Positions 169 through 42,943 of a DNA stretch of 64,000 nt are shown here, in pieces. The stretch comes from Emcibacteraceae bacterium (lineage in GTDB: Bacteria > Pseudomonadota > Alphaproteobacteria > Sphingomonadales > Emcibacteraceae). Position 1 is the stretch's first letter. Each line of letters starts with the position of its first letter. Position numbers and translations under genes: made by a program. Below the pieces are notes generated by a model that saw only the letters and a list, made by a program, of their open reading frames with translations, was not told where the DNA came from and did no database searches. The stretch lies in NCBI GenBank assembly GCA_021774795.1, contig JAJFIR010000042.1:1-64000 (forward strand), read 5' to 3'.

Positions 169-690
169 TTAATTGGATTTTATATAATTATACATCGTAT
201 CAGCATCAGATACTTCAAACGGATCAGTAGGGCAATTATCGCTGTAACCTTCTTCAGAGAAGATCTTTACAATTTCACCATTATCAACGAGCATTGAATA
301 GCGCCAGCTACGCATACCAAAACCCAAATTATCTTTATTTACAAGCATGCCCATTTTGCGGGTAAATTCACCGTTACCATCAGGCAGCAAGAAAACATTT
401 TCCGCCTTTTGACTGAGACCCCATTGATACATAACAAAAGCATCATTAACTGAAATACAGACAATTGCATCAACACCTTCAGCTTTAAACTGATCATAAA
501 GTTCTTCATATCTTGGAAGATGGCTTGTTGAACATGTTGGTGTAAATGCACCTGGTAGTGAAAAGACCACTACTTTCTTATTCTTGAATATTTCATCCGT
601 ACTCAAATCTTTCCACTCAAATGGATTTGGGCCGTCTATTGCGTCGTTTCTTACTCTGGTTTTAAAAACCACATTTGGAACATTAGTCAT
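169..690 (-). CDS. Peroxiredoxin, Prx5 subfamily
   Basis: A thiol peroxidase expected to reduce hydrogen peroxide and alkyl hydroperoxides in the cytoplasm. The Prx5-type active-site stretch PGAFTPTCS is present; with the start used here the peroxidatic cysteine is about residue 53. A later [15 protein letters not shown] stretch is also typical of Prx5/AhpC-TSA proteins. An ATG nine bases upstream (699) sits directly on the AAAGGA ribosome-binding sequence, so the ATG at 690, which gives MTNVPNV and 173 residues, is the better start. No glutaredoxin domain is fused. The gene is a single unit with its own terminator and is divergent from the aminotransferase array. Function is confident; the physiological reductant is not known. 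Confidence 0.9.
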
Positions 691-927
691 TATTTTCATC
701 CTTTAAAATATCGTTACAACATCTTATATAGTAGTTTAGAATAATTATAAAGTAATTTTTGTAAAAAAATAGGTTAAATCCACAACTCGAATTAAGCTTC
801 GCGAGATTTTATCGACTATAAACACATTATTCTGAAACACCCACGGCAAAAATTATAAAATATTGAAAAAATCTATGTTGGCAGATAGTATTTACCAGTA
901 ACAAAATATGAAGACAGAGGATAGAAA

Positions 928-2046
928 ATGACATCAGAAATAACACGTCGTGAATGGCTAGCTGGCGGCACTTTACTAGCAGGTAGCCTGATTGCTTCAA
1001 ACATCGCAAAAGCGCAAACCGTCATGGAACCAAATTTAAACCCCACACCAAATAATGCTATACGGGCAGGTTCAAACGAAAATGTTTATGGCCCGTCTCT
1101 AAAAGCACAAGAAGCGATGAACAAAGCAATGAAAACCGCACATTTATACGACTTTAGGTCGCAGTTCGTCTTAAAAAAAGTTATCTCGGAAATTGAAAAC
1201 ATACCGGAAGACCATATTGCTATGGCAAATGGCTCGAGCCCGTTTCTCGAAAAAGCGGGTTATGTTTCGCGGATTCAAGATGGAACCGTACTCGCCCCCT
1301 ATCCAACCTATAATACGTTATCCAGTACCGCCAGAACACTCGGCGGAAAAGTCATTGACGTTCCCGTTGATGAAAATATGTCCGTCGACCTTGAAGCGAT
1401 GAGAACTGCAATGACTGACGAAGTAAAGATGATATATATATGCAATCCGAATAATCCAATACCAACGATAATTGAAAAAAAAGCGCTACGCGAATTTTGC
1501 ATTGAAATGTCGAAAAGAGCCATCATCGTCATCGATGAAGCTTATTATGAATATGTAGATAATCCTGACTTTTCATCAATGGTTGACCTCGTTACAGAAC
1601 ATAAAAATATTATTGTTGCGAGAACTGCCTCAAAAATTCATGCGTTCGCCGGTATTCGCGTTGGATTTGCCTTCGCACATCCCGAAACTTTGTTGCTCAT
1701 TGCAGGAAGATTTAATTTATCTATGGGTAATGTCGCAATGCAAGGCGCAATAGTAAGTTATCAGGACACTGAATATCAGAATTTCATAAAGCAAAAAAAT
1801 AAAGAAAGTATGGCCATTCTGTATGAGTTATTTGAAGACCTTAATCTTCCTTATATAAAATCGAATACAAATTTTGTTTTCTTTAAAGCGGGTCGTCCGT
1901 CTAAGGAAATAGCAACAGAACTGCGAAAACACGGTATCATGAGCGGACGTGAATTTAAACCGTTCACGGATTGGGTCAGGTGGAGTACCGTCAAGCCACA
2001 AGAAATGCAATATGTAGCGGACACCTATAAAAAATTGTACGGTTAA
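928..2046 (+). CDS. Tat-exported HisC-like PLP aminotransferase, array gene 1
   Basis: Fold-type I, PLP-dependent aminotransferase related to histidinol-phosphate aminotransferase, 372 residues. The N-terminus has the twin-arginine motif TRREWL, a hydrophobic stretch and a likely cleavage after AKA-Q, so the enzyme should be exported folded to the periplasm. Landmarks are NPNNP, DEAYYEY (Asp for the PLP ring nitrogen), K236 in TASKIHAFAG (Schiff base) and the following Arg in AGIRVG. It is the most diverged copy: NENVYG replaces NENPYG, and GSSPF stands where HisC-type proteins have GSxE near the cofactor phosphate. AGAGGA precedes the ATG. Genes 1-3 of the array share HLYDF-like and GREFKPF segments and end in Gly. 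The substrate is unknown; it may be catalytically altered. Confidence 0.85.
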   Translation: MTSEITRREWLAGGTLLAGSLIASNIAKAQTVMEPNLNPTPNNAIRAGSNENVYGPSLKAQEAMNKAMKTAHLYDFRSQFVLKKVISEIENIPEDHIAMANGSSPFLEKAGYVSRIQDGTVLAPYPTYNTLSSTARTLGGKVIDVPVDENMSVDLEAMRTAMTDEVKMIYICNPNNPIPTIIEKKALREFCIEMSKRAIIVIDEAYYEYVDNPDFSSMVDLVTEHKNIIVARTASKIHAFAGIRVGFAFAHPETLLLIAGRFNLSMGNVAMQGAIVSYQDTEYQNFIKQKNKESMAILYELFEDLNLPYIKSNTNFVFFKAGRPSKEIATELRKHGIMSGREFKPFTDWVRWSTVKPQEMQYVADTYKKLYG

Positions 2047-2069
2047 TAGCGCGAAAGAACAATATTTAA

Positions 2070-2101
2070 CGGCATCTGGTTTTGATCATGTGCCGCTTTT
2101 A
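2070..2101 (+). terminator. Weak possible terminator after array gene 1
   Basis: CGGCA and TGCCG form a 5-bp stem with a long loop, followed by CTTTTATTT. The stem is short, so this is only suggestive. Confidence 0.35.
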
Positions 2102-2140
2102 TTTGGTTCTTGGATTTCTGAATTATTTGTGATTAAATAT

Positions 2141-2154
2141 GTTATATTATTTCA
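2141..2154 (+). repeat. 14-base block shared upstream of array genes 2 and 5
   Basis: GTTATATTATTTCA occurs here, 46 bases before the gene 2 ATG, and identically at 5746-5759 before gene 5. It may be a duplicated promoter or operator remnant. AT-rich content makes chance similarity possible. Confidence 0.45.
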
Positions 2155-2200
2155 AAAATATATTACGTACAAAAACCATAGCCCAAAAAAAGAGATATAA

Positions 2201-3325
2201 ATGACCAAAAGTATTACACGCCGCGAATGGCTAACTGGCACTACAACCGCTGCTGCAACAGGTTTAATGCTATCTACAGTAAGTGCCACTGCGCAAAGTT
2301 TTATGCAGCCAAATATAAACCCAACTGCGAAAAATCCGATAAGAGCACATTTAAACGAAAATGCTTATGGGCAATCATTAAAAGCAAGAAAAGCCATTGC
2401 TGCCGCTGCCGACGATTCTCATAAATATGCGTTTGAATCAATTTTCGAATTCTTGGCACTGCTTACAAAGTTAGAAGATATTCCACGCGAATATGTCATG
2501 GTTGGTGGTGGTTCTACTGAGTTTCTCGAAAAGGCTGCCGTTTTTAACGCGATTGAGGGGGGCGATATTTTGTTGCCTACCCCTACATACGGTGATATCG
2601 CCCGCTTTGGCCGCACGCTTGGGTCAAAGTTGATCGAAGTTCCCGTTGGTGAAGATATGGCCATTAACCTTAATGCGATGCGCGAAGCAATGACCGATAA
2701 CACAAAACTTATCTATCTTTGTAATCCAAACAACCCAATTCCATCAATCATAGAAAAAAATGCGTTAAAAGAATTCTGCAATGAAATGTCAGAAAAAGCG
2801 ACAGTACTTATTGATGAGGCATATTTCGAATATGTGGATAATCCCTCCTACGAAAGTATGATCAGCCTGGTTAAAGAAAACAAAAATATAATTGTCACGC
2901 GCACCGCATCAAAAATTCACGCGTTCGCAGGGATGCGCATTGGTGCTTGCTATGCTCATCCGGATATAATTAAGAAAATGTTTGGTCTTTTTACCAACAC
3001 GCTAAATTTGCCCGCTTTGCGCGGCGCAATTGAAAGCTATCAGGATATGGAATATCAAGCTTTCTTAAAACAAAAAAACAGCGAAAACCAACAGATTATA
3101 TATAAAATGCTGGATGACCTCGACCTTGAATATGTTGAAAGCAACGCGAATTTCATTTTCTTCAATGCTGGTCGTCCGTCAAGCGACGTCGCTGACACTA
3201 TGAAGAAACATCATATTCTGACCGGCCGCGAATTCAAACCATTTACAAACTGGGTGCGGCTCAGTTTGACAAAACCAGAAGAAATGCAATATTTCGCAGA
3301 TATTTATCGCCGCGAATTTGGTTAA
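2201..3325 (+). CDS. Tat-exported HisC-like PLP aminotransferase, array gene 2
   Basis: Second paralogue, 374 residues. It has the Tat signal TRREWL followed by an Ala-rich hydrophobic segment and ATAQ. PLP landmarks are NPNNP, DEAYFEY, K238 in TASKIHAFAG and the Arg in GMRIG. The position equivalent to NENPYG reads NENAYG, and the cofactor-phosphate loop is GGGSTEF, keeping the Glu that gene 1 lacks. It starts an apparent operon: gene 3 begins 27 bases after its stop and gene 4 35 bases after gene 3. AAGAGAT precedes the ATG. The reaction is unknown; family membership says transamination or a related PLP reaction on an amino acid or amine in the periplasm. Confidence 0.87.
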   Translation: MTKSITRREWLTGTTTAAATGLMLSTVSATAQSFMQPNINPTAKNPIRAHLNENAYGQSLKARKAIAAAADDSHKYAFESIFEFLALLTKLEDIPREYVMVGGGSTEFLEKAAVFNAIEGGDILLPTPTYGDIARFGRTLGSKLIEVPVGEDMAINLNAMREAMTDNTKLIYLCNPNNPIPSIIEKNALKEFCNEMSEKATVLIDEAYFEYVDNPSYESMISLVKENKNIIVTRTASKIHAFAGMRIGACYAHPDIIKKMFGLFTNTLNLPALRGAIESYQDMEYQAFLKQKNSENQQIIYKMLDDLDLEYVESNANFIFFNAGRPSSDVADTMKKHHILTGREFKPFTNWVRLSLTKPEEMQYFADIYRREFG

Positions 3326-3352
3326 AATATAACTTACTATCGGGAGACTAAA

Positions 3353-4480
3353 ATGACAAATAATATCACCAGACGCGAATGGTTAGTTGGAACAACGGCT
3401 GTAGCAGGCGGCATGGTTCTTAACAGTTCCGTATCTGCACAAAATATGAGCGAAATGATGAATATGGGGGCGCCGATAAGCAAAGATAATCCCATCCGTT
3501 ACACCAATAATGAAAACCCATATGGTATTAATCCAAAAGCTATGAAGGTGATCCTCGAAGCTTATAAAAAAGCCCACCTTTATAATTTCACCATAAGACG
3601 AGAACTGATAGATTTAATCGCAGGCATAGAAAAAATACCTTCAGAGTGTATCGCCGTTGGTGCCGGGTCAGGTGAATATTTAATGGCTTCGGGGGCACTC
3701 GCCGGGATTACTGGAGGAGATGTCATCGTCCCACACCCGACTTTTGCAGCCATCACCCGAAGTGCTTCAGCACTCGGCGCTAATATCATTCGTGTCCCTG
3801 TCGAAGATGATCTTTCTATCAGTCTTGAATCGATGCGAAAAGCAATGACGAATAATACAACATGTGTATATTTGTGTAATCCAAACAACCCTATCCCAAG
3901 CATCATTGAAAAAACCTCGCTTGAGCAATTCTGTTTGGAAGTTTCAAAAAAAGCGATGCTAGTTATTGACGAAGCTTACTTTGAATATGTCCGCGATGAC
4001 GGATACTCGACAATGGCACATCTGGTGAAAGATAATCCAAACATTATTATCCTGAGAACCGCCTCAAAAATTCACGGCTTCGCAAACGTGCGTATCGGGT
4101 TTGCTTTTACTCATCCAGACACCATGAAAAAGTTGATGACATTCAGATCAGGAACCACGTCATACCCCGCTATCATGGGTGCTATTGCGAGCTATAAGGA
4201 CACTGAATATCAAAAATTTATTGTTGATAAAAACTATGAATCTCTTGGGATACTCTACAAAATGTTTAAAGAACTTGATATGCCATATGTCAATGCGCAC
4301 GCAAATTTCGTTTATGCAAATGCTGGCAGAGATGCTATGGAAGTTAGAAGTAAACTCCTTGAATCCGGTATTCTAATCGGACGAAAATATGACCCGTTCC
4401 CCAACTGGATCCGCATAAGCACCGCTAAACCCGAAGAAATGGAATATTTGGTGAATATTTACAAAAGGGACTTCGGCTAA
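3353..4480 (+). CDS. Tat-exported HisC-like PLP aminotransferase, array gene 3
   Basis: Third paralogue, 375 residues, with a TRREWL Tat signal and a VSAQ cleavage region followed by a Met-rich linker. It retains NENPYG, GSGEYL, NPNNP, DEAYFEY and K239 in TASKIHGFAN. The usual FAGxR just after the lysine is FANVR here, a Gly-to-Asn change next to the phosphate-binding Arg that none of the other five copies has. The C-terminal PFPNWIRIS segment is aligned with the substrate-carboxylate Arg region of HisC. CGGGAGA precedes the ATG. It is the middle gene of the 2-3-4 transcription unit. By sequence it groups with genes 1 and 2. Substrate unknown. Confidence 0.87.
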   Translation: MTNNITRREWLVGTTAVAGGMVLNSSVSAQNMSEMMNMGAPISKDNPIRYTNNENPYGINPKAMKVILEAYKKAHLYNFTIRRELIDLIAGIEKIPSECIAVGAGSGEYLMASGALAGITGGDVIVPHPTFAAITRSASALGANIIRVPVEDDLSISLESMRKAMTNNTTCVYLCNPNNPIPSIIEKTSLEQFCLEVSKKAMLVIDEAYFEYVRDDGYSTMAHLVKDNPNIIILRTASKIHGFANVRIGFAFTHPDTMKKLMTFRSGTTSYPAIMGAIASYKDTEYQKFIVDKNYESLGILYKMFKELDMPYVNAHANFVYANAGRDAMEVRSKLLESGILIGRKYDPFPNWIRISTAKPEEMEYLVNIYKRDFG

Positions 4481-4515
4481 AAAAAAATAAAACGACATAA
4501 TTAAAGGGACATAAA

Positions 4516-5640
4516 ATGACAAACAATTTGACAAGACGCCATTGGTTGAAAGGAACCACCGCTGTCGTCAGTGGGTTATTACTTGCAAATTCCGCCTCAG
4601 CGCAAAGCGTAACCATCGATGGCTACACACCTACGCCAGAAAACCCTATTCACTTTAGCTCCAATGAAAATCCATATGGTATAAATAGAACGGCGCGGAA
4701 AGCGATGAATAAGGCATATGATGTCTCTCATCTCTACGGTGGGCCGGGACGGCGCGAGCTTACTGACTTGATTGCAAGCATTGAAAAAGTTCCAACAGAA
4801 AATATTTTAATTTCAACAGGCTCCGGTGAAATATTAAACACCTTAGCTTTGATTGTTGCAATCGAAGGCGGAAGCATTCTTGCCCCGAACCCGACATTTG
4901 ATAATCAATTTATGGCTTACGCTGAAAGAATGGGAATTAATAAAGTTCGCGTTCCAGTAGCAGATGACATGAGTATTGATTTAAATGCCATGCGTGCTGC
5001 TATGACCGATGATGTCAAAATAATTTATTTGTGCAACCCTAATAATCCGACGCCGACCATAATGCACGGCGAAGAATTAAGAGAGTTTTGCCTTGAAATG
5101 TCAAGAAGATGTTATGTATTTGTCGATGAAGCATATTACGAATATGTAAACGATCCAAATTACGAAACGATGGTTCCACTTGCAATCGAAAATGAAAATA
5201 TCATTGTGACACGTACCGCATCGAAAATTCACGGATTTGCAGGTGTGCGCATCGGTTTTGGATTTGGATCGACCGCTATTTTAAGAAAAATTAAAAATCA
5301 TCTGACCGGCACTGTAAACACCATTGGCCTATATGGTGCGATCGCCAGCTATAAAGACAAAGCTTATCAAGAATTTGTTCTGCGTAAAAATCAAGAATCG
5401 CTCGAAATTCTCTATGAACTTTTTGAAAAACATAATTTAAGATATATCGAATCCCATACCAACTTTACCTATGTTGAAATGGGTATCGAGGCAAAGGAAG
5501 TTGGTGAAAGGTTCAGAAAGTACGGTATTCGGGTTGGAAGACCGTTTCAACCCTTCACAAATTGGTGCCGAATTAGTACAGGAAAACCTGAAGACACAAG
5601 ATACCTAGCAGAGGTTTACGAAAAAGAATTTGTCTCTTGA
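4516..5640 (+). CDS. Tat-exported HisC-like PLP aminotransferase, array gene 4
   Basis: Fourth paralogue, 374 residues, and the first of the second subclass (genes 4-6). Signature differences from genes 1-3 are HLYGGPGR in place of HLYxF, GSGEIL, YVFVDEAYYEY, GRPFQPFTNWCRIS and an EFxS C-terminal end. The Tat motif is TRRHWLKG with cleavage near ASAQ. K237 lies in TASKIHGFAG and the Arg follows in GVRIG. AAAGGGA precedes the ATG. It closes the 2-3-4 unit and is followed by a strong terminator. The segment NPNNPTPT departs from NPNNPTG of cytosolic HisC, as in all six. Probably periplasmic; substrate unknown. Confidence 0.88.
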   Translation: MTNNLTRRHWLKGTTAVVSGLLLANSASAQSVTIDGYTPTPENPIHFSSNENPYGINRTARKAMNKAYDVSHLYGGPGRRELTDLIASIEKVPTENILISTGSGEILNTLALIVAIEGGSILAPNPTFDNQFMAYAERMGINKVRVPVADDMSIDLNAMRAAMTDDVKIIYLCNPNNPTPTIMHGEELREFCLEMSRRCYVFVDEAYYEYVNDPNYETMVPLAIENENIIVTRTASKIHGFAGVRIGFGFGSTAILRKIKNHLTGTVNTIGLYGAIASYKDKAYQEFVLRKNQESLEILYELFEKHNLRYIESHTNFTYVEMGIEAKEVGERFRKYGIRVGRPFQPFTNWCRISTGKPEDTRYLAEVYEKEFVS

Positions 5641-5665
5641 AGTTGCATAACATATTGAGAAAAAA

Positions 5666-5694
5666 GGCATTGCTGTAATTCAGTAATGCCTTTT
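5666..5694. terminator. Strong bidirectional terminator after array gene 4
   Basis: A 10-bp stem (GGCATTGCTG / CAGTAATGCC, one G-U pair) with a 5-base loop is flanked by A-runs on the left and TTTT on the right. It separates genes 2-4 from gene 5. Confidence 0.85.
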
Positions 5695-5715
5695 CAATTT
5701 TCAGAAATGATTTTC

Positions 5716-5743
5716 GTGACAAATCAGTAAAAATTGGTATGTT
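5716..5743 (+). promoter_or_regulatory. Predicted promoter of array gene 5
   Basis: GTGACA (-35-like) is followed after 16 bases by TATGTT (-10-like), ending 39 bases before the ATG. The same GTGACA-N16-TATxxT geometry precedes gene 6, which supports it. The 14-base block shared with gene 2 begins at 5746. Confidence 0.45.
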
Positions 5744-5782
5744 GAGTTATATTATTTCATTACATTTCATAAAGGGCCGAAA

Positions 5783-6904
5783 ATGAAAAACGATATCTCA
5801 AGACGTGATTGGTTAAAAGGTGGTTCAGCGCTTGCAGGGGCGCTCTTAATGGGCAGCAGGGCTAATGCGCAAAATATGGCCGTTCCCGGTTTCGTCCCCA
5901 CACCGGAAAGTCCATTGCGGTTAGGCACCAACGAAAACCCTTACGGTATATCACGAGTGGCACGAAACGCTATCATCGATATGTTCGATACCGCCCACCA
6001 TTACGGCAGAGGCCGCAGAATGGAACTCACGAACATTATTGCTGAAATAGAAGGCGTCGACGCCAAAAACATCACTTTTTCAGGTGGCTCTGGTGAGATA
6101 TTAAAAACCTTGGCTTTAATCACTGCGGTTGAAGGAGGCACTGTTTTAACGGCTGATCCAACTTATCATGATCTAACCCGCTATGCGGAACGTCGCGGTG
6201 TCAAAATAAACCGCGTTCCAGTCGATGAAAGTATGACGATTGATCTAGATGCGCTTAAAGCAGCATATACTGATGATGTAAGCATAATTTATTTGGTTAA
6301 CCCGAATAACCCACTACCGACAATTATGGAAAAAAATAAACTCAAAGAATTCTGCATCGAGATGTCAAAAAAATGCTTGGTGTTTATTGACGAAGCGTAT
6401 CACGAATATGTACAAAATCCCGATTATGAAACTATGGTCCCTCTCGCCGTCGCAAATGATAATATCATGGTTGCGCGAACCGCGTCAAAAATTCATGGTT
6501 TTGCCGGCATTCGCCTCGGCATCGCATATTCAACCGAGAAATGGATTGGTAAGCTAAGAGAATTTATGACAGGCTCAACAAATCAGCTTGCTATCGCAGG
6601 TGCCGCAGCCAGTTACAAAGATACAGCAACACAAGATTTTTTGCGCCGGAAAAATAAGGAAGCATTTGATATCACATATGCTTTATTTGATAAGCATAAT
6701 GTTAAGCACATCAAGTCTAATGCTAATTTCACATTTTTCGAAACAGGAATGGATATAACGGAAGTTCGCGAAAAATTCAGAGCGAACGGAATTATAGTGG
6801 GTCGTCCCTTCCCGCCATTCACGACCTGGTGCCGGGTCAGCATGGGCAAACCGGAAGACATGGAATATTTTTCAAAAATTTATGAAAAAGAATTCACAAG
6901 CTAA
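5783..6904 (+). CDS. Tat-exported HisC-like PLP aminotransferase, array gene 5
   Basis: Fifth paralogue, 373 residues, second subclass. Its Tat motif is SRRDWLKGG with a hydrophobic core and cleavage near ANAQ. It has NENPYG, HHYGRGR, GSGEIL, NPNNPLPT, DEAYHEY (His where the others have Tyr or Phe), K236 in TASKIHGFAG and Arg in GIRLG. It carries YLVNPNNP where the other copies have a Cys before NPNNP. AAAGGG precedes the ATG. It has its own predicted promoter and a terminator on each side, so it is probably transcribed alone. Substrate unknown; predicted to act in the periplasm with PLP loaded before export. Confidence 0.88.
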   Translation: MKNDISRRDWLKGGSALAGALLMGSRANAQNMAVPGFVPTPESPLRLGTNENPYGISRVARNAIIDMFDTAHHYGRGRRMELTNIIAEIEGVDAKNITFSGGSGEILKTLALITAVEGGTVLTADPTYHDLTRYAERRGVKINRVPVDESMTIDLDALKAAYTDDVSIIYLVNPNNPLPTIMEKNKLKEFCIEMSKKCLVFIDEAYHEYVQNPDYETMVPLAVANDNIMVARTASKIHGFAGIRLGIAYSTEKWIGKLREFMTGSTNQLAIAGAAASYKDTATQDFLRRKNKEAFDITYALFDKHNVKHIKSNANFTFFETGMDITEVREKFRANGIIVGRPFPPFTTWCRVSMGKPEDMEYFSKIYEKEFTS

Positions 6905-6926
6905 GCTTCATTAGTTATCGAGATAA

Positions 6927-6957
6927 GGCATCGTTTCACTGGAACGGTGCCTTTTTT
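6927..6957 (+). terminator. Terminator after array gene 5
   Basis: GGCATCGTT pairs with AACGGTGCC (one G-U pair) around a 7-base loop and is followed by six T. It resembles the hairpin after gene 4 (both begin AAGGCAT), suggesting that the intergenic segment was duplicated with the gene. Confidence 0.85.
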
Positions 6958-6965
6958 CTATTTAA

Positions 6966-6993
6966 GTGACAAACACATTATTTTTGTTATTCT
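6966..6993 (+). promoter_or_regulatory. Predicted promoter of array gene 6
   Basis: GTGACA, 16 bases, then TATTCT, ending 30 bases before the chosen ATG. It is the same -35-like hexamer and spacing as at gene 5. Confidence 0.5.
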
Positions 6994-7023
6994 ATATCCA
7001 TTCACAAAATGAAGGGACAAAAA

Positions 7024-8151
7024 ATGACGGGAAAAATCACAAGAAGAGAATGGCTGATTGGCGGCACTGCACTTGCTGGCGGGCTTGTACTAGCAAGCGA
7101 AGCACATGCGCAAAGCATTACGATTGAAGGATACGTACCGACCCCGGAAAATCCAATCAGGATGAATGCAAATGAAAATCCGTATGGTGTTAACAAGAAA
7201 GCCAGTATTGCAATGCACAAAGCTCATCAAATGGGCCACCTATATGGCGGCGGCGGCGCGCAGGGACCACTTACAGAACTCATTGCAGGCATGGAAAATG
7301 TACCGGTAGAAAATACGATGGTTGCGGGCGGCTCCGGTGAAATTCTAAAAACACTTGCTTTAATAGTCGCCATGGAAGGCGGTAAAATTCTGGCACCACT
7401 GCCCACATATGACGACACTTTCATGGATTATAGTAACCGTCGTGGTATAGAAAAAATATGGGTTCCGGTCGCTGATGACCTTTCAATTGACTTAGACGCA
7501 ATGAAAGCGGCCTACACGGATGACGTAAAAATTATCTATCTATGTAATCCCAATAATCCAATCCCAACGGTGATACACGGCGAAAAATTAAAGGAATTCT
7601 GCAAGGAAATGTCGCAAAAATGTTATGTTTTTGTTGATGAAGCTTATTATGAATATGTCAATGACCCTAACTACCAAACCATGATTCCACTGGTAACCGA
7701 ATACCCGAATGTGGTTGTGACACGCACAGCATCAAAAATCCATGCCTTTGCTGGCATCCGCATTGGTTTCGGTTTCGGTTCGCCGGAAATGCTTGCCAAA
7801 ATTAAAAGCTTAATGACCGGGTCAATTAATGGTCCCGCCATGTGGGGGGCTATCGAAAGCTATAAAGATACTGAATACCAACAATTCGTCCTGCGTAAAA
7901 ACAAAGAAGCATTGCAAGTTCTCTATGATTTCTTTGATAAACATAATATGCGCCATATCAAATCCAACGCTAACTTCACTTTCTTTGAAACCGGTATGGA
8001 TGTGGAGGAAGTTTACGCAAGGGTGAGAAAACACGGCATTGCAATCGGTCGCCCGTTCCCGCCTTTCTTAAAATGGATGCGGATCAGTACCGCGAGGCCA
8101 GAGGACATGGTATTATTCACAGAAGTTTATGAGAAAGAATTTTTCAGTTAA
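7024..8151 (+). CDS. Tat-exported HisC-like PLP aminotransferase, array gene 6
   Basis: Sixth paralogue, 375 residues from the chosen start, second subclass. An upstream in-frame ATG at 7009 sits on the GAAGGGA ribosome-binding sequence; the ATG at 7024 gives MTGKITRREW, matching the other five. Cleavage is likely near AHAQ. Landmarks are NENPYG, HLYGGGG, GSGEIL, NPNNPIPT, DEAYYEY, K238 in TASKIHAFAG, Arg in GIRIG and GRPFPPFLKWMRIS. It is most like genes 4 and 5 by its C-terminal EFFS end and FFETGMD segment. It has its own promoter and converges with trxA. Substrate unknown. Confidence 0.88.
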   Translation: MTGKITRREWLIGGTALAGGLVLASEAHAQSITIEGYVPTPENPIRMNANENPYGVNKKASIAMHKAHQMGHLYGGGGAQGPLTELIAGMENVPVENTMVAGGSGEILKTLALIVAMEGGKILAPLPTYDDTFMDYSNRRGIEKIWVPVADDLSIDLDAMKAAYTDDVKIIYLCNPNNPIPTVIHGEKLKEFCKEMSQKCYVFVDEAYYEYVNDPNYQTMIPLVTEYPNVVVTRTASKIHAFAGIRIGFGFGSPEMLAKIKSLMTGSINGPAMWGAIESYKDTEYQQFVLRKNKEALQVLYDFFDKHNMRHIKSNANFTFFETGMDVEEVYARVRKHGIAIGRPFPPFLKWMRISTARPEDMVLFTEVYEKEFFS

Positions 8152-8171
8152 GCAAAAAAATTAGTTAAGCC

Positions 8172-8203
8172 AAAAGAAAAGACGCCTTCATAATGAAGAC
8201 GCC
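8172..8203 (-). terminator. Terminator of trxA
   Basis: On the minus strand GGCGTCTTCA pairs with TGAAGGCGTC (two G-U pairs) around TTA, followed by TTTTCTTTT. On the plus strand the wobbles become C-A mismatches, so it serves trxA better than array gene 6. Confidence 0.7.
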
Positions 8204-8226
8204 TTTTCGTAATTTCGGTGTTAGGA

Positions 8227-8544
8227 TTACACGTTTTCGCTAATCCAGCTTTCAAAGTCACCTTTTGAAGTATTGCCAACTTTCATTGCCGCAACTTCAC
8301 CGTTTTTAAACATAAGCATAGTGGGAATACCTCGAACACCATATTTTGTTGGTGCTTCAGGGTTCTCATCAATATTGACTTTAGCAAAAGTCACTTCTTC
8401 CATATTATTTGAGACGTCCTCAAAAACAGGACCAAATTGCTTACATGGTCCGCACCACTCTGCCCAAAAATCAACGATTACTGGTTTATCCGACTTTAAT
8501 ACTTCCTGATCGAATGCGGAATCTGTTACTGCAATTATGCTCAT
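8227..8544 (-). CDS. trxA: Thioredoxin
   Basis: Cytoplasmic thiol-disulfide reductant of 105 residues, full length for a classical thioredoxin. The active site is WCGPC with C31 and C34, preceded by VIVDFWAEW, and the cis-Pro region RGIPTMLMF is present. There is no signal peptide. It lies 77 bases downstream of addA on the same strand, an arrangement common in alphaproteobacteria, and ends at a good terminator. It may be co-transcribed with addBA or have its own promoter in the gap. GGAAATAA precedes the start. Confidence 0.97.
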   Translation of the reverse strand: MSIIAVTDSAFDQEVLKSDKPVIVDFWAEWCGPCKQFGPVFEDVSNNMEEVTFAKVNIDENPEAPTKYGVRGIPTMLMFKNGEVAAMKVGNTSKGDFESWISENV

Positions 8545-8621
8545 TATTATTTCCTTAAAAAATGTCCTTCATTAATAATGAACTTAAGAAGCGATGGCCA
8601 CATCGTCAAGAGCCAAGGCAG

Positions 8622-11600
8622 TTAAAAGGTAATTTTATTTAATATTTCATCGGGTATTTCCATTAAAGTGCAGATATCCGTCCAAAGCAAAAAGGACCGA
8701 ACGTCAAATCCCGGATAAATATTCTTAAGCACCGCCGAATATGCTGCCATTTGCCGTAAATAAATTCTTGGAATTTTATCTGCGCGTTCCGCCGGCGGTC
8801 TGTTGGTCTTATAATCCACTATGAGTATCTTATTACCACTTATCACCAGCCTGTCCACTTGACCACTCAACGAATATGCCCCAATTTGCCCAACAATTGG
8901 CACTTCAGCCTTGCTGTCTGGACCAAATAATACCGCAAGACTTTCATCTTCTATTATTGTAAGAACTTCAGTTGAAATTTTGCTTATATCCGAAGCCGAA
9001 AGATCAACCGCTTTTTGCGATAGATATTTAATAGCAGCATTTGCGCGGTCATCCGGCGGCAAATCAGGTAAGATTTCAAGTAACTTATGGATCACCCGGC
9101 CACGATGATATTTTCGTTTATCCAGCTTGATGTGTTCCGCTAATTGAAGCGGGCTTGTTGTCACTTCTTCTGAATCATCTGGTCGTGACGGGCTAAGTGG
9201 TCTGCTGGGTATCGGCTCGGCCGCTGGCAAAGTATATGCCCAGCCCGGCAGCTTATCCGAGAATGGTGGGCTTTTCTCTTCTTTTTTAACCTTTTTAACG
9301 TACGACTTGGCCATATGCTCTCGCCTGAGTATTGCATGATCGCCTTCGGCAACCTCCTCGCAACCCTCCATTTCAAGCACGGCATTTCGGATTAAATCGT
9401 ACCAACAACCTTCTTTGCGATTACTATTATGCTTATTTTCCCACCCTGTGATATAAAGTCTGTCTTCCGCGCGCGTCATTGCCACATAAAGAAGCCTTTT
9501 ATTCTCGTCTTCTAACTCTCTTTTGCGATTTTCATAGGCAGTTTTCCCGGCTCCAACCCGTGTATCTTTATTTTTTACCCAAAGCATATAACGTTGGCGA
9601 TCTTTCTGGTGCCAGAATAATGTATCTTTAATATCAACGGCTTGACAAGTATCAGGTAAAAAAACTATCGGTGCCTGAAGCCCTTTTGCGCCGTGAACAG
9701 TCATAATGCGAACCATGTCCCCACCTTGCTCCATATCGCGTTTTATTTTAATCTCCCCTTTTTCAATCCAACTCAAGAATCCTTGCATGGATGAAATGTT
9801 ATTTTGCTCGTAACTCATTGCTTTATTTAAAAACTCATCCACTGGATCATTGGATTGCTCTCCAAGGCGGGCGATAAGCATTTTACGCCCCTTCAATGGC
9901 CCCAAAAGATAGGAAAAAAATTCAAACGGAGGATGAAAATCCGCATAATTGGTCAGACGTGTCAAATAGTCGGCAGCTTCACCAAAAGAAGTACGCTCTT
10001 TGCGCCTTTTTAGCAGTGCGGACCAGAGACTTTCTCTTTCCCCTCTTGGATTAGCAACGTCGAATAAATCTTCTTCACTCATTCCGATAAACGGACTTTT
10101 AAGAACCACTGCTAAAGTCAAATCATCGCCTGGCAGGAGCGTGAAGTTCGCCATTGCCATAAGATCCATCACAGCAAGCTGGTCAGTTAATACCATTTGA
10201 TCAAGGCCCGCGACGGCAATTTTGCGTTTTTTGAGTGCTCGGATCATATAATGGACAAATTCCTTACGCTTTTGTACTAAGATTAAGATATCACCCGGTG
10301 TGATAGGGCGGCCTTTAGATGCAAGAATTTCACCACTTCTGATCCAAGATTGAATTTTATCCGCTATCTGATCTGCTAATTTACGTTTGGGATCATGAGT
10401 AGGATTTTGAATTATCGGAGGTGACCAGTTTTCCTGTTGTTCGACCTCTTCCGGTAACTGTGGATCCCATATTTCGATCAATCCCGGTTCATTCGTGCGG
10501 TGAGTATTGTGGCGAATTTCGTCGGAAGCAAAGGATATGGCATGTCGATGGTCTTCGCTTTTAAAAACCTGATCAACCACTTCAAGCACTGCTGCCGTCG
10601 ATCTGAATGAAAGATTCATTGGCACGTTCTTAAAATTAAGTTCCGCTTCTTCCACCTGTTTATTGAAATAGTCTCTGGTGATATTAAAAAGCTTTGGTTC
10701 AGCCTTTTGAAAGGAATAAATGGATTGTTTAACGTCACCCACCGCAAAAATTGTCCTTGGACTATGTCGCGCAACGTCCGAATCCCGCGTTCCTATGCCC
10801 GCAAAAAACTCAAGTGCCAATTTTCTAATAATATTCCATTGTTCCGGGTTGGTATCTTGCGCTTCATCAATCAAAATATGATCAATCCCTTCATCCAGTT
10901 TATAAAGAATCCAACTCGCACTAACATTTTGAAATAAAAGGCTTACTTTTGAAATAAGGTCATCATAATCGACAACATTGCGGCTGCGTTTACGCGCACC
11001 ATAGGTTTTTATCAGCTCAAACCCCATTCGTAAAATCGCACAAGTATTTTCGTAAAGATTATATGCCTTCAGCCGTTCTTCTATAAACTTAATTCGCTCT
11101 GCCTCTTCATATAGAATTTCTAACTCATGTGGATATTTTTCAGCAAGATTTTTGGTCATATATTTTGCAAAATAATCTCCCTTGGCTGTCAGGAACGCCC
11201 GCTTATATTGGTCAAAACTATCAGGCCGTGCCTCTATCTCCTTTAACCAGCCCTCTATTATCCTGCCTCTGCCTTCATCCACTTTTGATCCCGCCAAAAG
11301 CACTACGGAAGCCTCTAACAAACCTCGATGATTAAAATTATCGTCATCACATGCAGAACTTAAAATAGTTGATCTATCATCAGTTTCTAAAAACCCAAGA
11401 AGTTCCTTTAACGACCGGGATACTTCTTCAAAAGACGACATGTTTCTTTTAATGAGTTGCTCTAAACTGCCTCGTTCATTCGTCAGGCTTTTCATCAGGG
11501 CCGCGAATGTATCTTCTGCAAGCATCCCGGAAAGAAAACTCAGAGCCAATGACAACTGTTCGTTTTTGCCACTGTCAATGTCCCTAAGCAGCTCATCCTG

Positions 11601-12068
11601 CGAATGTCTTAGTTGTTCGTTGATCGTAATATCATCCAGTAAATCAAAGTTCGGAGACACCTTCGCCTCAATGGGAAAACGACCGAGCAATGACTGGCAA
11701 AAAGAATGAATGGTTTGAATTTTTAGCCCGCCAGGCACATCAAGCACTTGTGCGAATAATTTACGTGCCAGCATCATTTGATCTTGCGTGGGCGGCTTGC
11801 CCAATACGTCACTTAATTCGGTAAATAATTCTTTATCTGCCTTGGATATCCATGCAGATAGATGCTTATTGACCCGAATGGCCATTTCAGCAGCCGCTGT
11901 GTTGGTATAAGTAAGGCACAATATTTTATCTGGACGGTTCCCGGCTAACATGAGGCGAAGCACTCTATTAGACAGAACGAATGTTTTACCGGTACCGGCC
12001 GAAGCACCAACCCAGACCGATGATTTAGGGTCAGACGCAGCTAGTTGCTCGGCTGTTTGCACCACCAT
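8622..12068 (-). CDS. addA: Double-strand break repair helicase-nuclease AddA
   Basis: Motor and nuclease subunit of the AddAB complex that resects double-strand breaks for RecA-dependent repair; 1148 residues with the start used here. UvrD-type motifs occur in order: Walker A ASAGTGKT near residue 25, Walker B LIDEAQDTNP, GDVKQSIYSFQ, TVHGAKGL and YVAMTRAEDR. The C-terminal RecB-type nuclease has the VDRL...VDYKTNR pattern. The start is ATG at 12068, inside a TAATG overlap with the addB stop and preceded by GGAGAAGG, which implies translational coupling. A longer frame starting at 12083 has no such support. Confidence 0.96.
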   Translation of the reverse strand: MVVQTAEQLAASDPKSSVWVGASAGTGKTFVLSNRVLRLMLAGNRPDKILCLTYTNTAAAEMAIRVNKHLSAWISKADKELFTELSDVLGKPPTQDQMMLARKLFAQVLDVPGGLKIQTIHSFCQSLLGRFPIEAKVSPNFDLLDDITINEQLRHSQDELLRDIDSGKNEQLSLALSFLSGMLAEDTFAALMKSLTNERGSLEQLIKRNMSSFEEVSRSLKELLGFLETDDRSTILSSACDDDNFNHRGLLEASVVLLAGSKVDEGRGRIIEGWLKEIEARPDSFDQYKRAFLTAKGDYFAKYMTKNLAEKYPHELEILYEEAERIKFIEERLKAYNLYENTCAILRMGFELIKTYGARKRSRNVVDYDDLISKVSLLFQNVSASWILYKLDEGIDHILIDEAQDTNPEQWNIIRKLALEFFAGIGTRDSDVARHSPRTIFAVGDVKQSIYSFQKAEPKLFNITRDYFNKQVEEAELNFKNVPMNLSFRSTAAVLEVVDQVFKSEDHRHAISFASDEIRHNTHRTNEPGLIEIWDPQLPEEVEQQENWSPPIIQNPTHDPKRKLADQIADKIQSWIRSGEILASKGRPITPGDILILVQKRKEFVHYMIRALKKRKIAVAGLDQMVLTDQLAVMDLMAMANFTLLPGDDLTLAVVLKSPFIGMSEEDLFDVANPRGERESLWSALLKRRKERTSFGEAADYLTRLTNYADFHPPFEFFSYLLGPLKGRKMLIARLGEQSNDPVDEFLNKAMSYEQNNISSMQGFLSWIEKGEIKIKRDMEQGGDMVRIMTVHGAKGLQAPIVFLPDTCQAVDIKDTLFWHQKDRQRYMLWVKNKDTRVGAGKTAYENRKRELEDENKRLLYVAMTRAEDRLYITGWENKHNSNRKEGCWYDLIRNAVLEMEGCEEVAEGDHAILRREHMAKSYVKKVKKEEKSPPFSDKLPGWAYTLPAAEPIPSRPLSPSRPDDSEEVTTSPLQLAEHIKLDKRKYHRGRVIHKLLEILPDLPPDDRANAAIKYLSQKAVDLSASDISKISTEVLTIIEDESLAVLFGPDSKAEVPIVGQIGAYSLSGQVDRLVISGNKILIVDYKTNRPPAERADKIPRIYLRQMAAYSAVLKNIYPGFDVRSFLLWTDICTLMEIPDEILNKITF

Positions 12069-15022
12069 TAACCTTCTCCCCATTCTTTGGTCCGCGCGAG
12101 ATGATCATATTCACCGTAACCAACTGCTTCGGGTCGCGGTTTATTTAAATATGGGGTTTCCAGAAAATCAAACGTCGTCACCAGATTGATAAGGCCTTCA
12201 TAGGCATTTTGCGCTTCAGCCATCACATCAATTTTTTTTGTAGCGTTGAATAAGTTGATCGAACCCGCTTTTTCCCCGCCGGAAAGTTGCCAATATGATA
12301 GCTCACTTACCGCTGATGCCGGTAATAACGAAAACCCGCCTTCTATCGCTATTGCTGCCTCAAGGGGTAATTGCGGTTCGAAACCCGCTTTTAACGACCT
12401 TAAAGTTGGTGGTTTTCCGGTCTTATAATCAATAATACTTAGGCTTCCGTCAGAAAATTGATCAATCCTGTCGGCTCTTGCACTAAGCGTGAAAGCTCCG
12501 CCCGGTAAATTAAATACCATTTTACCAATGGTTTCGGTAACAACCGTTTTTATTTCGGGCCGTCTTTTTCTTTCTTGCTCAATAAACCAAGTGGCAATTT
12601 GCTTAAACCGTGGCCACCAGAAAGCTCTTACCGTCGGTTTATCAATAGCGTCGCTAAAATAGCCTCTCGCGATTTCAATAAGCTTTTCATCGGCGTCATC
12701 CGGGAGATGATCCTGATAACGGCTCATGAAATCTTCTAAAATGTCATGGATCATGATCCCTTTATCGATAGCTCCCGGGTCCTGGTCCAGATCATCAAGT
12801 TTTTTGAGACGCAATATTTTGTTGGCATATAGACTATAAGGGTCTTGCATCCAGAGCCGAATGCGAGTTACCGACAATTCCCGGGGTCTTGCAATTGCCG
12901 GTGGTCTCGGTTCTGGTGCTTTTATTTCAATTGGTTGATCTGGCTGATCCAACATTCGATACCAGTTAAGCCATTTTTGGCTTTCCTGTCTATGATGATC
13001 ATCACCAATTATCGCGTGAAGCCTCCCCAACCAACGGGATTTTACCGTTGGGGCACCGTTCTGTTTCTCTGGCCGCGTGATGACGACTTTTTCCGCTGAT
13101 GCCGTTTGTACGAAGTCATGGGCACTAAGGCCTATTTTCTGTTCAAGGCCCGGAAGTCCGAAATCCCGCCTCATCGGTCTGCTCATCCAAGGATCAGCAG
13201 ATATTTCCGGTGGCCATACGCCTTCATTTAAGCCACCAAGTATCATTAAATCCGCATGTTGCAGTCGCGCTTCGAGCGGCCCCCAGATATTAAGCCTCGG
13301 ATGCTGGCCATATTTCTGCCTAACCGTAATACTGCTCATAAACCGTTCAAACAGTGCCGCATATTCACTTGCGTTAAAATGCCGGAGGTACGGCGCCGCC
13401 TCTATCAAATCCTCTATAAGCTTCGCGGCTGCGTCACCAGCATCACCTTTCCACAGCAGTTTAGCACCGTCAACCTCGTTTGTTGCAGCAAGTTTTTCAG
13501 CCATTTCTATATGAGCTAAGAGCATTTCACCGAAGCTTATATCCTCTTTTTCAAACAACGCACAAAACGGCTCAATAATTGCCCGAAGCGACTGCCACCA
13601 TTTTCTCAGATCATCGTCTGCGACACCGATTTCAGAATTAAAGCAAGCATCAATACCATCCGACCCAGGCGTGGGTCTTACTCCCCTAAGCAGATTTTGT
13701 TCAAATCTTCGAACGTGAGCCCGGAAGTCACCGACATTCAAACCACCTGCCATAAGCGGATGTTTTAATGCGCTCATTAATGAAATTGGTTCCATTTTCT
13801 CGGACACCATTTCGGCGACAAGACGTAAGTAAATACCTGTAGCAGTATTAAAAAGTGGCGTACCGGCACTATCGTCAATTTCAATATCCCACCGTCTTAA
13901 CTCGCCCGCTACTTGTCGGGCCAGCATCCTGTCAGGTGTCACTAGTGCTGCCGTCTTACCGGGAACACTTAATTGTTCGCGCATCATAAGTGCTATTATC
14001 CCCGCTTCTTCGCGTGTACCTGGCGTAACAACCTGGATAATATCATCCATAGCAACCAAAGGGTTCCAATCAAGGTCACGCCAGACATGCGTCGTTTCTG
14101 CGGGCCTCATTATTTCACGAAAAAGACGGGTTTTTATATGATCGCTGTCATCACCTGATACCCAGTTATCAATTTCTATCCGATCGGCACCAATGGCATT
14201 TAACAGCTTTTTCATCGTCGCCTGAGGATGCGTATCTTCGATCGCTTCCCAGCTGTCGTCGTCAATATTTTGATCAAGCCCGGGAAGCACAACCATACCC
14301 TTGGGAAGTCGAGCTATAACTTCCAGGAGCGCAGAAGTCGCCCTTATTGAGCCGGTCGATCCTGCTGCTATGATAGGATGATCAGGAGGATTTCGAAGCC
14401 AGTTTTCACAAAGCGCGTGCAGGAGATGGTTTCGTCGTTCGGCCGCATCCATATACCCTGTTCCATCCAGTAAATCTGGCCAGTTCTTCGTCAATATCTG
14501 TAAAAACTTTAGCGTCTCTTGCCAATGGATTGCGAATTCCTCTGGAACCAAATTTTCCAATTCATCGAAGTTTACACCTTCTGTCTGGACTTGATCCAGA
14601 AGCCCCCCAAGAGCTTCTGCAAGAACGGAACGCCCGGCACTTTCCGGCGTGTCATCCGGTTGATTTTCGTACCAGGAATAGATAATATTCATCAGAATCA
14701 TCTGACGCACATAACCGGGCACAGCAGGTTTTATCGATAAATCTTCGTACAGCGGACCTGCGCCCATGATCAAGCCATCTTCATCCACATCGCCAATTGG
14801 CTGCATGTTTGGAAGTATAATCGAATGGCCATCTGTAATCCGTAAAAAGGCATCACGCAGCGAGCGAACGGCCCGACGATTGGGCAGTAAAATCAAAACT
14901 TCACTCAGACTTATGGGGTCATCGCCGTACCTCGCCATGATACCTTCCGCAAGAACATCTACAAATGAAAAATATGCGGGAATATTATAAAGCTCGGGGT
15001 TTTTTCCAAGACGTCTTGGCAT
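12068..15022 (-). CDS. addB: Double-strand break repair protein AddB
   Basis: Partner subunit of AddA, 984 residues. It has the N-terminal LLPNRRAVRSLRDAFL segment, an inactive helicase-like middle and a C-terminal RecB-family nuclease domain with ARADRID...SIIDYKTGKPP. I see no Cys cluster flanking the nuclease domain, unlike the iron-sulfur AddB of Bacillus; the last 30 residues contain no Cys. The gene begins 7 bases after the amgK-murU stop and its stop overlaps the addA start, so it is part of the same operon. Expected to load RecA with AddA at Chi-like sites. Confidence 0.95.
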   Translation of the reverse strand: MPRRLGKNPELYNIPAYFSFVDVLAEGIMARYGDDPISLSEVLILLPNRRAVRSLRDAFLRITDGHSIILPNMQPIGDVDEDGLIMGAGPLYEDLSIKPAVPGYVRQMILMNIIYSWYENQPDDTPESAGRSVLAEALGGLLDQVQTEGVNFDELENLVPEEFAIHWQETLKFLQILTKNWPDLLDGTGYMDAAERRNHLLHALCENWLRNPPDHPIIAAGSTGSIRATSALLEVIARLPKGMVVLPGLDQNIDDDSWEAIEDTHPQATMKKLLNAIGADRIEIDNWVSGDDSDHIKTRLFREIMRPAETTHVWRDLDWNPLVAMDDIIQVVTPGTREEAGIIALMMREQLSVPGKTAALVTPDRMLARQVAGELRRWDIEIDDSAGTPLFNTATGIYLRLVAEMVSEKMEPISLMSALKHPLMAGGLNVGDFRAHVRRFEQNLLRGVRPTPGSDGIDACFNSEIGVADDDLRKWWQSLRAIIEPFCALFEKEDISFGEMLLAHIEMAEKLAATNEVDGAKLLWKGDAGDAAAKLIEDLIEAAPYLRHFNASEYAALFERFMSSITVRQKYGQHPRLNIWGPLEARLQHADLMILGGLNEGVWPPEISADPWMSRPMRRDFGLPGLEQKIGLSAHDFVQTASAEKVVITRPEKQNGAPTVKSRWLGRLHAIIGDDHHRQESQKWLNWYRMLDQPDQPIEIKAPEPRPPAIARPRELSVTRIRLWMQDPYSLYANKILRLKKLDDLDQDPGAIDKGIMIHDILEDFMSRYQDHLPDDADEKLIEIARGYFSDAIDKPTVRAFWWPRFKQIATWFIEQERKRRPEIKTVVTETIGKMVFNLPGGAFTLSARADRIDQFSDGSLSIIDYKTGKPPTLRSLKAGFEPQLPLEAAIAIEGGFSLLPASAVSELSYWQLSGGEKAGSINLFNATKKIDVMAEAQNAYEGLINLVTTFDFLETPYLNKPRPEAVGYGEYDHLARTKEWGEG

Positions 15023-42941: not shown

Positions 42942-42943
42942 GA

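Follow-up and report, generated by a model that had tools for sequence, protein, structure and literature searches.

Among enzymes that depend on pyridoxal 5'-phosphate (PLP), PtaA and PvdN are described as exported by the twin-arginine translocation (Tat) pathway, leaving the cell folded and loaded with their cofactor, and PtaA is, in the consulted part of a review, given as a periplasmic transaminase by experiment (PMC6206403). A related literature concerns L-amino acid oxidases (LAAOs) and RidA proteins. The lao-cccA-ridA genes of Gluconacetobacter diazotrophicus encode, as far as the accessible text of the report goes, an LAAO predicted to be exported via Tat and a cytochrome c proposed to take its electrons, and the same text cites a periplasmic LAAO-RidA complex of Chlamydomonas (PMC5053998). 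Salmonella RidA hydrolyses the imines formed by snake-venom LAAO, and the clustering of RidA with amine oxidases and PLP enzymes is already in print, again going by excerpts of the source (PMC4433059). Here we describe an array of six genes for Tat-type, HisC-like PLP aminotransferases at positions 928-8151 (forward strand) of a 64,000-nucleotide stretch of contig JAJFIR010000042.1 (assembly GCA_021774795.1) from a marine Emcibacteraceae bacterium, the whole stretch being called the window below, and relate it to exported LAAOs and RidA proteins in the same genome (G000) and in other taxa. The reading that we favour tentatively, and consider a little short of probable, is that these proteins are substrate-specialised entry enzymes of a periplasmic transdeamination system.

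The six genes lie head to tail, separated by 154, 27, 35, 142 and 104 bases from 5' to 3', and each encodes a full-length protein of 372-380 residues (copies S1 to S6, Table 1). The Pfam family Aminotran_1_2 matches all of them across most of the mature part (124-153 bits), and in an alignment of the six the motifs RR-x-WL near the N-terminus, NENxYG, NPNNP, DEAYxEY and TASKIH are invariant, the PLP lysine of TASKIH being K236 in S1 and K243 in S6, with two C-terminal arginines (R341 and R351 in S1) kept throughout. This family match together with the catalytic residues is what characterises fold-type I PLP aminotransferases, and open reading frame (ORF) calls, Pfam and alignment agree with the original prediction, made from the DNA letters, of six adjacent full-length paralogues with a twin-arginine signal and an intact PLP Lys, Asp and Arg. 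Across 69 grouped array proteins of the genus 50 positions are invariant, among them (S6 numbering) PLP Lys243, Asp210, Tyr213, Asn183, Arg251 and the C-terminal Arg348 and Arg358. These we take to be the Schiff-base lysine, the aspartate to the pyridine nitrogen, the tyrosine, the asparagine, the arginine at the PLP phosphate and the C-terminal arginines of the family, Arg358 presumably being the usual anchor of the alpha-carboxylate in such transaminases. Transaminase chemistry would accordingly be expected of all six, judging from residues.

Each N-terminus reads (S/T)RRxWL followed by an uncharged stretch of alanine, glycine and leucine and then by an xxAQ-type signal end; a script finds the cut-site pattern A-x-A-Q in five copies, the third ending in VSAQ. 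The strict motif recurs in 77 of the 82 full-length copies of the genus, the other five being two that are cut at a contig start and one each with NRREWL, RRDC and SKREL. Outside the genus, where homologous loci were retrieved by active-site patterns with no use of the Tat motif, a looser RRx-hydrophobic motif is present in 71 of 73 homologue rows (representing 71 loci, L064 and L094 being too short), and the two exceptions, both from Marinimicrobia, have SRQQF and SRKSF in its place. Since the motif is kept so widely in the genus and beyond, it is not there by chance, and on the strength of the motif and its conservation we infer that the six copies are exported via Tat.

NCBIfam profiles and a tree place these proteins near, and apart from, the named HisC-fold families. 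PRK09105 (NF006580) is the best or second-best profile for all six and its match extends into the N-terminal signal region, at 197-240 bits (cut-off 444); by these scores the array proteins are relatives of PRK09105, not members. The PtaA model (NF051461) is matched over its whole length, or nearly so, by every copy at 168-206 bits (cut-off 500), and the copies share with PtaA a Tat motif and a HisC-type catalytic domain, so that PtaA was rightly chosen as the comparison in the original prediction. HisC itself (TIGR01141) gives 198-210 bits against a cut-off of 276.55, the genome's own HisC candidate, L011, reaching 317 bits, and the CobD profile gives 123-141 bits (cut-off 290.55), below the scores with HisC, PRK09105 and PtaA. 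In an IQ-TREE phylogeny of 61 rows, a clade of 43 rows (support 100/99) that contains the array copies stands apart from 17 cytosolic HisC-like rows. All but two of its rows, those from Marinimicrobia, carry the RRx-hydrophobic motif (41 of 43), and row G007_L139, which is without a Tat motif, is sister to the clade. Inside it the array copies and a distant seventh type (in G000:C56 and G005) group together (98/94), adjoining single-copy Tat-type proteins of Gammaproteobacteria (100/97). L011 is part of this tree and absent from a larger one of 169 rows; PtaA is in neither. The closest entry in the PDB by profile is 3ly1 (E 2e-71), which is also the best fold match (template modelling score 0.83 by query length, 28% identity) of an AlphaFold2 model of S6 with a mean predicted local distance difference test score of 90.3; HisC entries come next, and Rv3772 (4r2n) and CobD rank further down.

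How often such genes cluster, a check proposed by the original prediction, was answered within the genus: tandem copies are present in all 13 genomes searched (G000 and 12 others), in arrays of four to eight whose order is kept. Elsewhere in the family, 19 genomes from other genera give no aminotransferase match above 200 bits; of 28 genomes from the remainder of the order, three have one (231-252 bits). Array sizes, as taken from fetched stretches, are six in G000, G001 and G009, five in G002, G007 and G011, seven in G010 and four in G012; G003 has an array of six and one copy on another contig, G004 an array of five that is cut at the contig start, G005 one of seven with the first copy cut, G006 three and three copies on two contigs, and G008 an array of eight, one copy of which has RRDC and a long branch. 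One extra array-type copy lies elsewhere in each of G008, G009 and G012, the last of which is a single contig with four copies in a row and one about 48 kb off, and the distant seventh type is present in G000, G003 and G005. An assembly artefact is ruled out by the presence of tandem copies in every genome of the genus, single-contig G012 included, and a recent gene amplification by the divergence of the S1-S6 groups (43-62% identity) and their occurrence in several species.

In the 169-row tree S1 to S6 correspond to groups common to several species with the same gene order, and S4, its sister group S4b or both are present in all 13 genomes. Ortholog groups were hand-picked from this tree and hold 69 of the 79 array-type copies; the remaining ten are two S3-sister and four S5-sister copies, a divergent S2 copy, an S3 copy truncated by a contig end and two S1-like copies that do not belong to arrays. 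Within groups the median identity is 70-85%, against mean values of 43-62% between the S1-S6 groups. The paralogue groups are under purifying selection, with median ratios of nonsynonymous to synonymous substitution rates (dN/dS) of 0.050-0.106 per group, calculated from unsaturated pairs with dS < 2.5 (from 7 of 28 pairs for S1 to 27 of 36 for S4b). The groups differ in stretches on either side of the active site (ahead of NENxYG, past H-x-Y and in the loop that follows the PLP-lysine region), and only four columns passed a strict group-specific criterion, so that specialisation of the pocket is suggested and not proved.

Relatives of the array adjoin genes that fit a pathway. The homologue set from other taxa comprises 73 loci (L056-L128), and at 13 of these, all in Bacteroidota, a flavin amine oxidase of 520-553 residues with an RR-type signal of its own lies 0-126 bases from the aminotransferase gene. 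In a sample of 295 genomes of one Bacteroidota class, drawn around a seed genome, the aminotransferase (E <= 1e-85) is found in 17 and an LAAO-type oxidase in five, all of them among the 17. The two genes are in every case 33-112 bases apart on one strand, with the oxidase first in three and the aminotransferase first in two; without the seed genome the co-occurrence is four of four (Fisher 6e-6), and one of the five LAAO matches (G757) has an in-frame stop. Each of 13 searched gammaproteobacterial genomes with a sister aminotransferase has one to three LAAOs, against a background of 5 in 368 gammaproteobacterial genomes sampled without regard to the aminotransferase, a difference whose Fisher value of 4e-19 overstates independence, the 13 having been chosen as aminotransferase carriers and several being close relatives. 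The two genes are not adjacent in the gammaproteobacterial loci read. Twenty stretches around the gammaproteobacterial oxidases contain a CxxCH protein and RidA in seven cases, the CxxCH protein only in three, RidA only in one and neither in nine. The 13 belong to a set of 40 aminotransferase genomes searched for LAAO (with 27 from elsewhere), for which 41 of the 73 loci outside the genus were chosen, L076 being left out; L087, L094, L100, L103 and L113, which are gammaproteobacterial with a more distant or cut aminotransferase, fall outside that search. All candidates were scored in the 40 genomes, and the top four to six first-look candidates per genome in the large samples. Lipoprotein-type RidA genes also occur near the aminotransferase. 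In two Marinimicrobia the gene order is lipoprotein-type RidA, aminotransferase, DUF885 protein and M28 peptidase, with RidA 15-16 bases before the aminotransferase, and at one Pseudomonadales locus such a RidA is encoded on the opposite strand at a distance of 571 bases. A DUF885 protein by the seventh copy in G000 belongs to the same cluster as those of Marinimicrobia.

The window's own genome has five oxidases of the LAAO family with KR-type signals, related over their full length to the Bacteroidota LAAOs (E 2e-117) and having as best solved relative 2jae, an L-amino acid oxidase (E 2e-98). Every one of the 13 genomes of the genus has an LAAO that scores at least 870 bits, and tandem LAAO genes are frequent there; above 200 bits LAAO is found in none of the 19 genomes of other family genera and in four of the 28 others in the order. 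On contig C42 of G000 an LAAO, a cytochrome c and two RidA genes form an operon-like run (L177), complete in six and partial in two of the eight genus genomes for which the locus was fetched; because genes were called as longest ORFs, a cytochrome c or RidA that seems absent from G010 and G007 may have been missed by the calling. All elements of the LAAO-CccA-RidA module (Tat-type LAAO, cytochrome c, secreted RidA, one operon) are together at this locus and not at the window array. By eye, as for all RidA, LAAO and peptidase signals here, the RidA pair has signals of the Sec type, and several secreted RidA copies keep an arginine at the position that we take to be catalytic. A second locus, on C58 (L178), combines LAAO genes with dipeptidase genes, an arrangement that recurs, complete or incomplete, in nine genomes of the genus; besides G000, nine genomes had some of their LAAO loci fetched. 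The original prediction held that no pathway gene sits beside the array; this is true of the window, and has to be amended in that relatives elsewhere adjoin LAAO-type oxidases or lipoprotein-type RidA and that the same genome carries the LAAO-cytochrome c-RidA-RidA operon. Also on C58, two tandem exported-looking YjgF/RidA-like proteins (L179, G000:C58:1-12000, 1270-2384) have a lipoprotein-type and a Tat-like N-terminus, respectively.

Table 1. Features of the array region (positions in the window) and of two LAAO loci of the same genome (positions in the named stretch).
Feature	Position	Strand	Description
Copy S1	928-2046	+	372 aa, Tat-type HisC-like PLP aminotransferase; ortholog group n=8
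Copy S2	2201-3325	+	374 aa, family as S1; ortholog group n=12
Copy S3	3353-4480	+	375 aa, family as S1; ortholog group n=11
Copy S4	4516-5640	+	374 aa, family as S1; groups n=5 (S4) and n=9 (sister S4b)
Copy S5	5783-6904	+	373 aa, family as S1; ortholog group n=12
Copy S6	7009-8151	+	380 aa, family as S1; most conserved group
Terminator-like stem between S5 and S6	6925-6953	+	13 pairs, then TTTTT
Peroxiredoxin-like flanking gene	169-699	-	By eye; adjoins several arrays (component c12)
Thioredoxin-like gene	8227-8544	-	By eye; WCGPC in translation; convergent to array
L177 (G000:C42:30001-48000)	7667-10954		Operon-like run: Tat-type LAAO, cytochrome c, RidA, RidA
L178 (G000:C58:46001-64000)	7469-14885		LAAO genes, three in tandem; genes for two Tat-type M19 dipeptidases diverge from them

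The array with its Tat motifs, active sites and paralogue groups, the gene link between aminotransferase and LAAO in another phylum, and the C42 operon are features of the genomes as read; the periplasmic transdeamination system into which we would join them could work as follows. Tat would carry the folded, PLP-loaded aminotransferases into the periplasm, where exported peptidases and dipeptidases would free amino acids. Each paralogue would handle a different set of these, with a 2-oxo acid receiving the amino group, and with several transaminase groups the system could draw on more kinds of amino acid. The acceptor, which is hypothetical, would be supplied by the exported LAAO as its own product: a transaminase would re-form the LAAO substrate from this 2-oxo acid while deaminating another amino acid, and the exported flavin LAAOs, acting as oxidases or dehydrogenases, would oxidise the re-formed amino acid, restoring the acceptor. 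Electrons from the LAAO may pass to cytochrome c, and secreted RidA would hydrolyse the imines that the LAAO releases. In sum, the periplasm would yield ammonium and 2-oxo acids with no need to import amino acids first. Of the periplasmic transamination by specialised members put forward in the original prediction, the Tat-type signals (motif and conservation), the transaminase-type active sites and the distinct, long-kept members, with orthologous groups across species and differing pocket-side stretches, have stood, and its statement that there was no pathway is corrected. The case for transdeamination is strongest for the genus, for the gammaproteobacterial sisters and for Bacteroidota with the gene pair.

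A number of observations weigh against this reading. The gene link is far from universal: 12 of the 17 aminotransferase genomes in the Bacteroidota sample are without LAAO, and many Bacteroidota have a membrane protein as neighbour of the aminotransferase instead. LAAO is likewise missing, at 1e-60, from 19 of the 27 non-gammaproteobacterial aminotransferase genomes, both Marinimicrobia included. The random gammaproteobacterial sample holds two non-seed aminotransferase genomes (242 and 302 bits) without LAAO and five non-seed LAAO genomes without the aminotransferase, and outside the genus in the order there are, at the 200-bit level, three aminotransferase genomes (231-252 bits) without LAAO and four LAAO genomes without the aminotransferase. 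Because carriers of the two so often do not overlap, the aminotransferase family can work without this LAAO. In G000 the array lies on C37 and the LAAOs on C25, C42 and C58, that is, not in one operon; the link between array and LAAO in the genus is by genome content only, and their co-expansion counts as one event. The LAAO signals of the genus are of the KR and not the RR type. Lastly, an LAAO of broad specificity would have no need of transaminases.

Among the other explanations is tailoring in the manner of PtaA, in which the paralogues would swap amino and keto groups on a periplasmic metabolite (a siderophore, lipid, glycan or small peptide) and the six copies would serve several products. 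Of the relatives described by experiment, PtaA is the closest by profile and, in the part of the review available, turns the glutamate of pyoverdine into alpha-ketoglutarate in the periplasm (PMC6206403). We regard this explanation as unlikely: the scores of 168-206 bits are far under the PtaA cut-off of 500, and the annotated part of the array flanks contains no biosynthetic genes. A nonribosomal peptide synthetase (NRPS) peptide or pyoverdine glutamate is an improbable substrate in particular, because a search of the genome found no NRPS condensation domain, and tailoring of an NRPS siderophore was rejected on that negative result. The six might alternatively be PLP lyases, racemases or decarboxylases on a HisC scaffold, making enamines that RidA clears or turning D- into L-amino acids for the LAAO. 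The lipoprotein-type RidA directly 5' of the gene in two Marinimicrobia would suit such chemistry, as would the decarboxylase CobD among HisC-fold relatives, and RidA acts behind PLP enzymes that form 2-aminoacrylate, according to the excerpted source (PMC4433059). Set against this are the CobD scores (123-141 bits, cut-off 290.55), which lie under those with HisC, PRK09105 and PtaA, and the canonical transaminase residues, which are kept throughout, although they are compatible with other PLP chemistry; this explanation we hold to be quite unlikely.

Production of an extracellular aryl-pyruvate, such as indole-3-pyruvate, for signalling or iron binding, with transaminases and LAAO working in parallel on aromatic amino acids, has a precedent of sorts in G. 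diazotrophicus, whose LAAO mutants are reported in the available text to lose the production of indole-3-acetic acid from tryptophan (PMC5053998). Six diverged groups seem excessive for one product, however, and the pocket-side stretches vary between groups, so that we rate it as very improbable. That the six are ordinary cytosolic HisC-like enzymes with mis-called starts deserves almost no credence and was rejected on tree placement and motif conservation: of the copies in the genus 77 of 82 carry the motif, as do 71 of 73 rows from other taxa, ATG codons sit just 5' of it, and the original prediction had named single copies inside cytosolic HisC as an outcome that would count against it, where the tree returned the separate clade.

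We therefore retain periplasmic transdeamination as the tentative reading, in which the substrates, the LAAO product as acceptor, the flow of electrons to cytochrome c and the coupling of aminotransferase to LAAO are all presumed. In a wider form, which we consider possible and rather doubtful, a branch of amino-acid catabolism (transamination, respiratory oxidative deamination and imine clearance) would have moved outside the cytoplasm, several exported, substrate-specialised transaminases feeding exported LAAO dehydrogenases via a periplasmic pool of 2-oxo acids, and would recur as gene pairs in some Bacteroidota, as co-occurrence in a set of Gammaproteobacteria and as double expansions in the genus. 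If so, bacteria would gain ammonium and reducing power from periplasmic amino acids while releasing or importing the 2-oxo acids, and the genome-based view of amino-acid turnover by marine bacteria would change, with transporters no longer marking the first step. A widespread exported HisC-like family, whose nearest solved relative is titled putative histidinol-phosphate aminotransferase, would gain a role, and recycling of the PLP cofactor outside the cytoplasm would become testable.

Some details of the array and its surroundings may be added. The true start of S6 is probably at 7024, just 5' of the Tat motif. The stem between S5 and S6 hints weakly at separate transcripts, and terminator-like sites, 11 against 7.6 (standard deviation 2.5) in shuffles, are not compelling; no RNA element in the window reaches the gathering threshold. 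The product of the 5' flanking gene, which we take by eye to be peroxiredoxin-like, has no NCBIfam match at 1e-60, and its place beside arrays is probably synteny only; genes further upstream are invisible in G000 because the window begins at base 1 of contig G000:C37. On the 3' side the thioredoxin-like gene is followed by two long genes, addA and addB by eye, and together these are the usual 3' border of arrays in the genus (components c3, c1 and c10). The array flanks (peroxiredoxin-like, thioredoxin-like, AddAB-like, GSDH/DUF7133-like and an outer-membrane beta-barrel) were considered as partners; they are kept in several genomes and are read as synteny. Elsewhere in the window a dipeptidyl-peptidase-IV-like S9 peptidase with a signal-like N-terminus (29038-31284) and a run that reads as leucine degradation (38129-44551: acyl-CoA dehydrogenase, 3-hydroxy-3-methylglutaryl-CoA lyase, biotin carboxylase with a methylcrotonyl-CoA-type domain, enoyl-CoA hydratase and carboxyltransferase) fit an amino-acid-eating organism.

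Further genes were seen near members of the wider family. The distant seventh copy of G000 (L158, G000:C56:56001-73000, 7989-10813) adjoins a DUF885 protein, a pair also found in Marinimicrobia (L068, L071). The genus has a second Tat-type HisC-like set (L130, L132, L133, L135) with a secreted-looking cupin gene directly 5' in all four, and another (L129, L131, L134) with NmrA-like and RraA-like genes 3' in all three. In 13 Bacteroidota loci (L086, L088 and L125 among them) a membrane protein of 364-383 residues is encoded 0-144 bases 3' of the aminotransferase; that of L125 has no Pfam match and is carrier-like by eye. Near the aminotransferase in 16 Bacteroidota loci (including L082, L085, L095, L106 and L109), 13 of them also with LAAO, is a secreted-looking protein mostly of 307-348 residues, which in L095 has a C-terminal Hint module.

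A literature search over titles and the starts of abstracts, of incomplete coverage, found no tandem Tat-exported HisC-like arrays and no aminotransferase-LAAO-RidA export system. Compared with the systems that are described, the array proteins share with HisC the fold and the active-site motifs, and differ in having a Tat-type signal, in forming a separate clade (100/99) and in scoring below the HisC cut-off; 3ly1, a putative histidinol-phosphate aminotransferase of Erwinia carotovora, is their closest solved structure by both profile and fold. PtaA of Pseudomonas is, like them, a HisC-type PLP enzyme with a Tat signal, and the array proteins match its profile along the entire model or almost so, whereas here there are six tandem copies that score below its cut-off, in a genome where no NRPS condensation domain was found. 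The lao-cccA-ridA genes of G. diazotrophicus resemble the C42 locus of G000 in that a single operon combines an LAAO with a predicted Tat signal, a cytochrome c and RidA, with the differences that in G000 the LAAO is multiplied and RidA doubled and that the accessible text on G. diazotrophicus does not mention an exported aminotransferase. The LAAO-RidA complex of Chlamydomonas, as cited, parallels our proposal in deaminating extracellular amino acids outside the cytoplasm with RidA; it is from an alga, and the citing text, in the part available, does not mention aminotransferases. An exported transaminase, in PtaA, and the LAAO-CccA-RidA cluster are thus already known, and what appears to be new is the tandem array of exported HisC-like proteins and its genetic tie to an exported LAAO.

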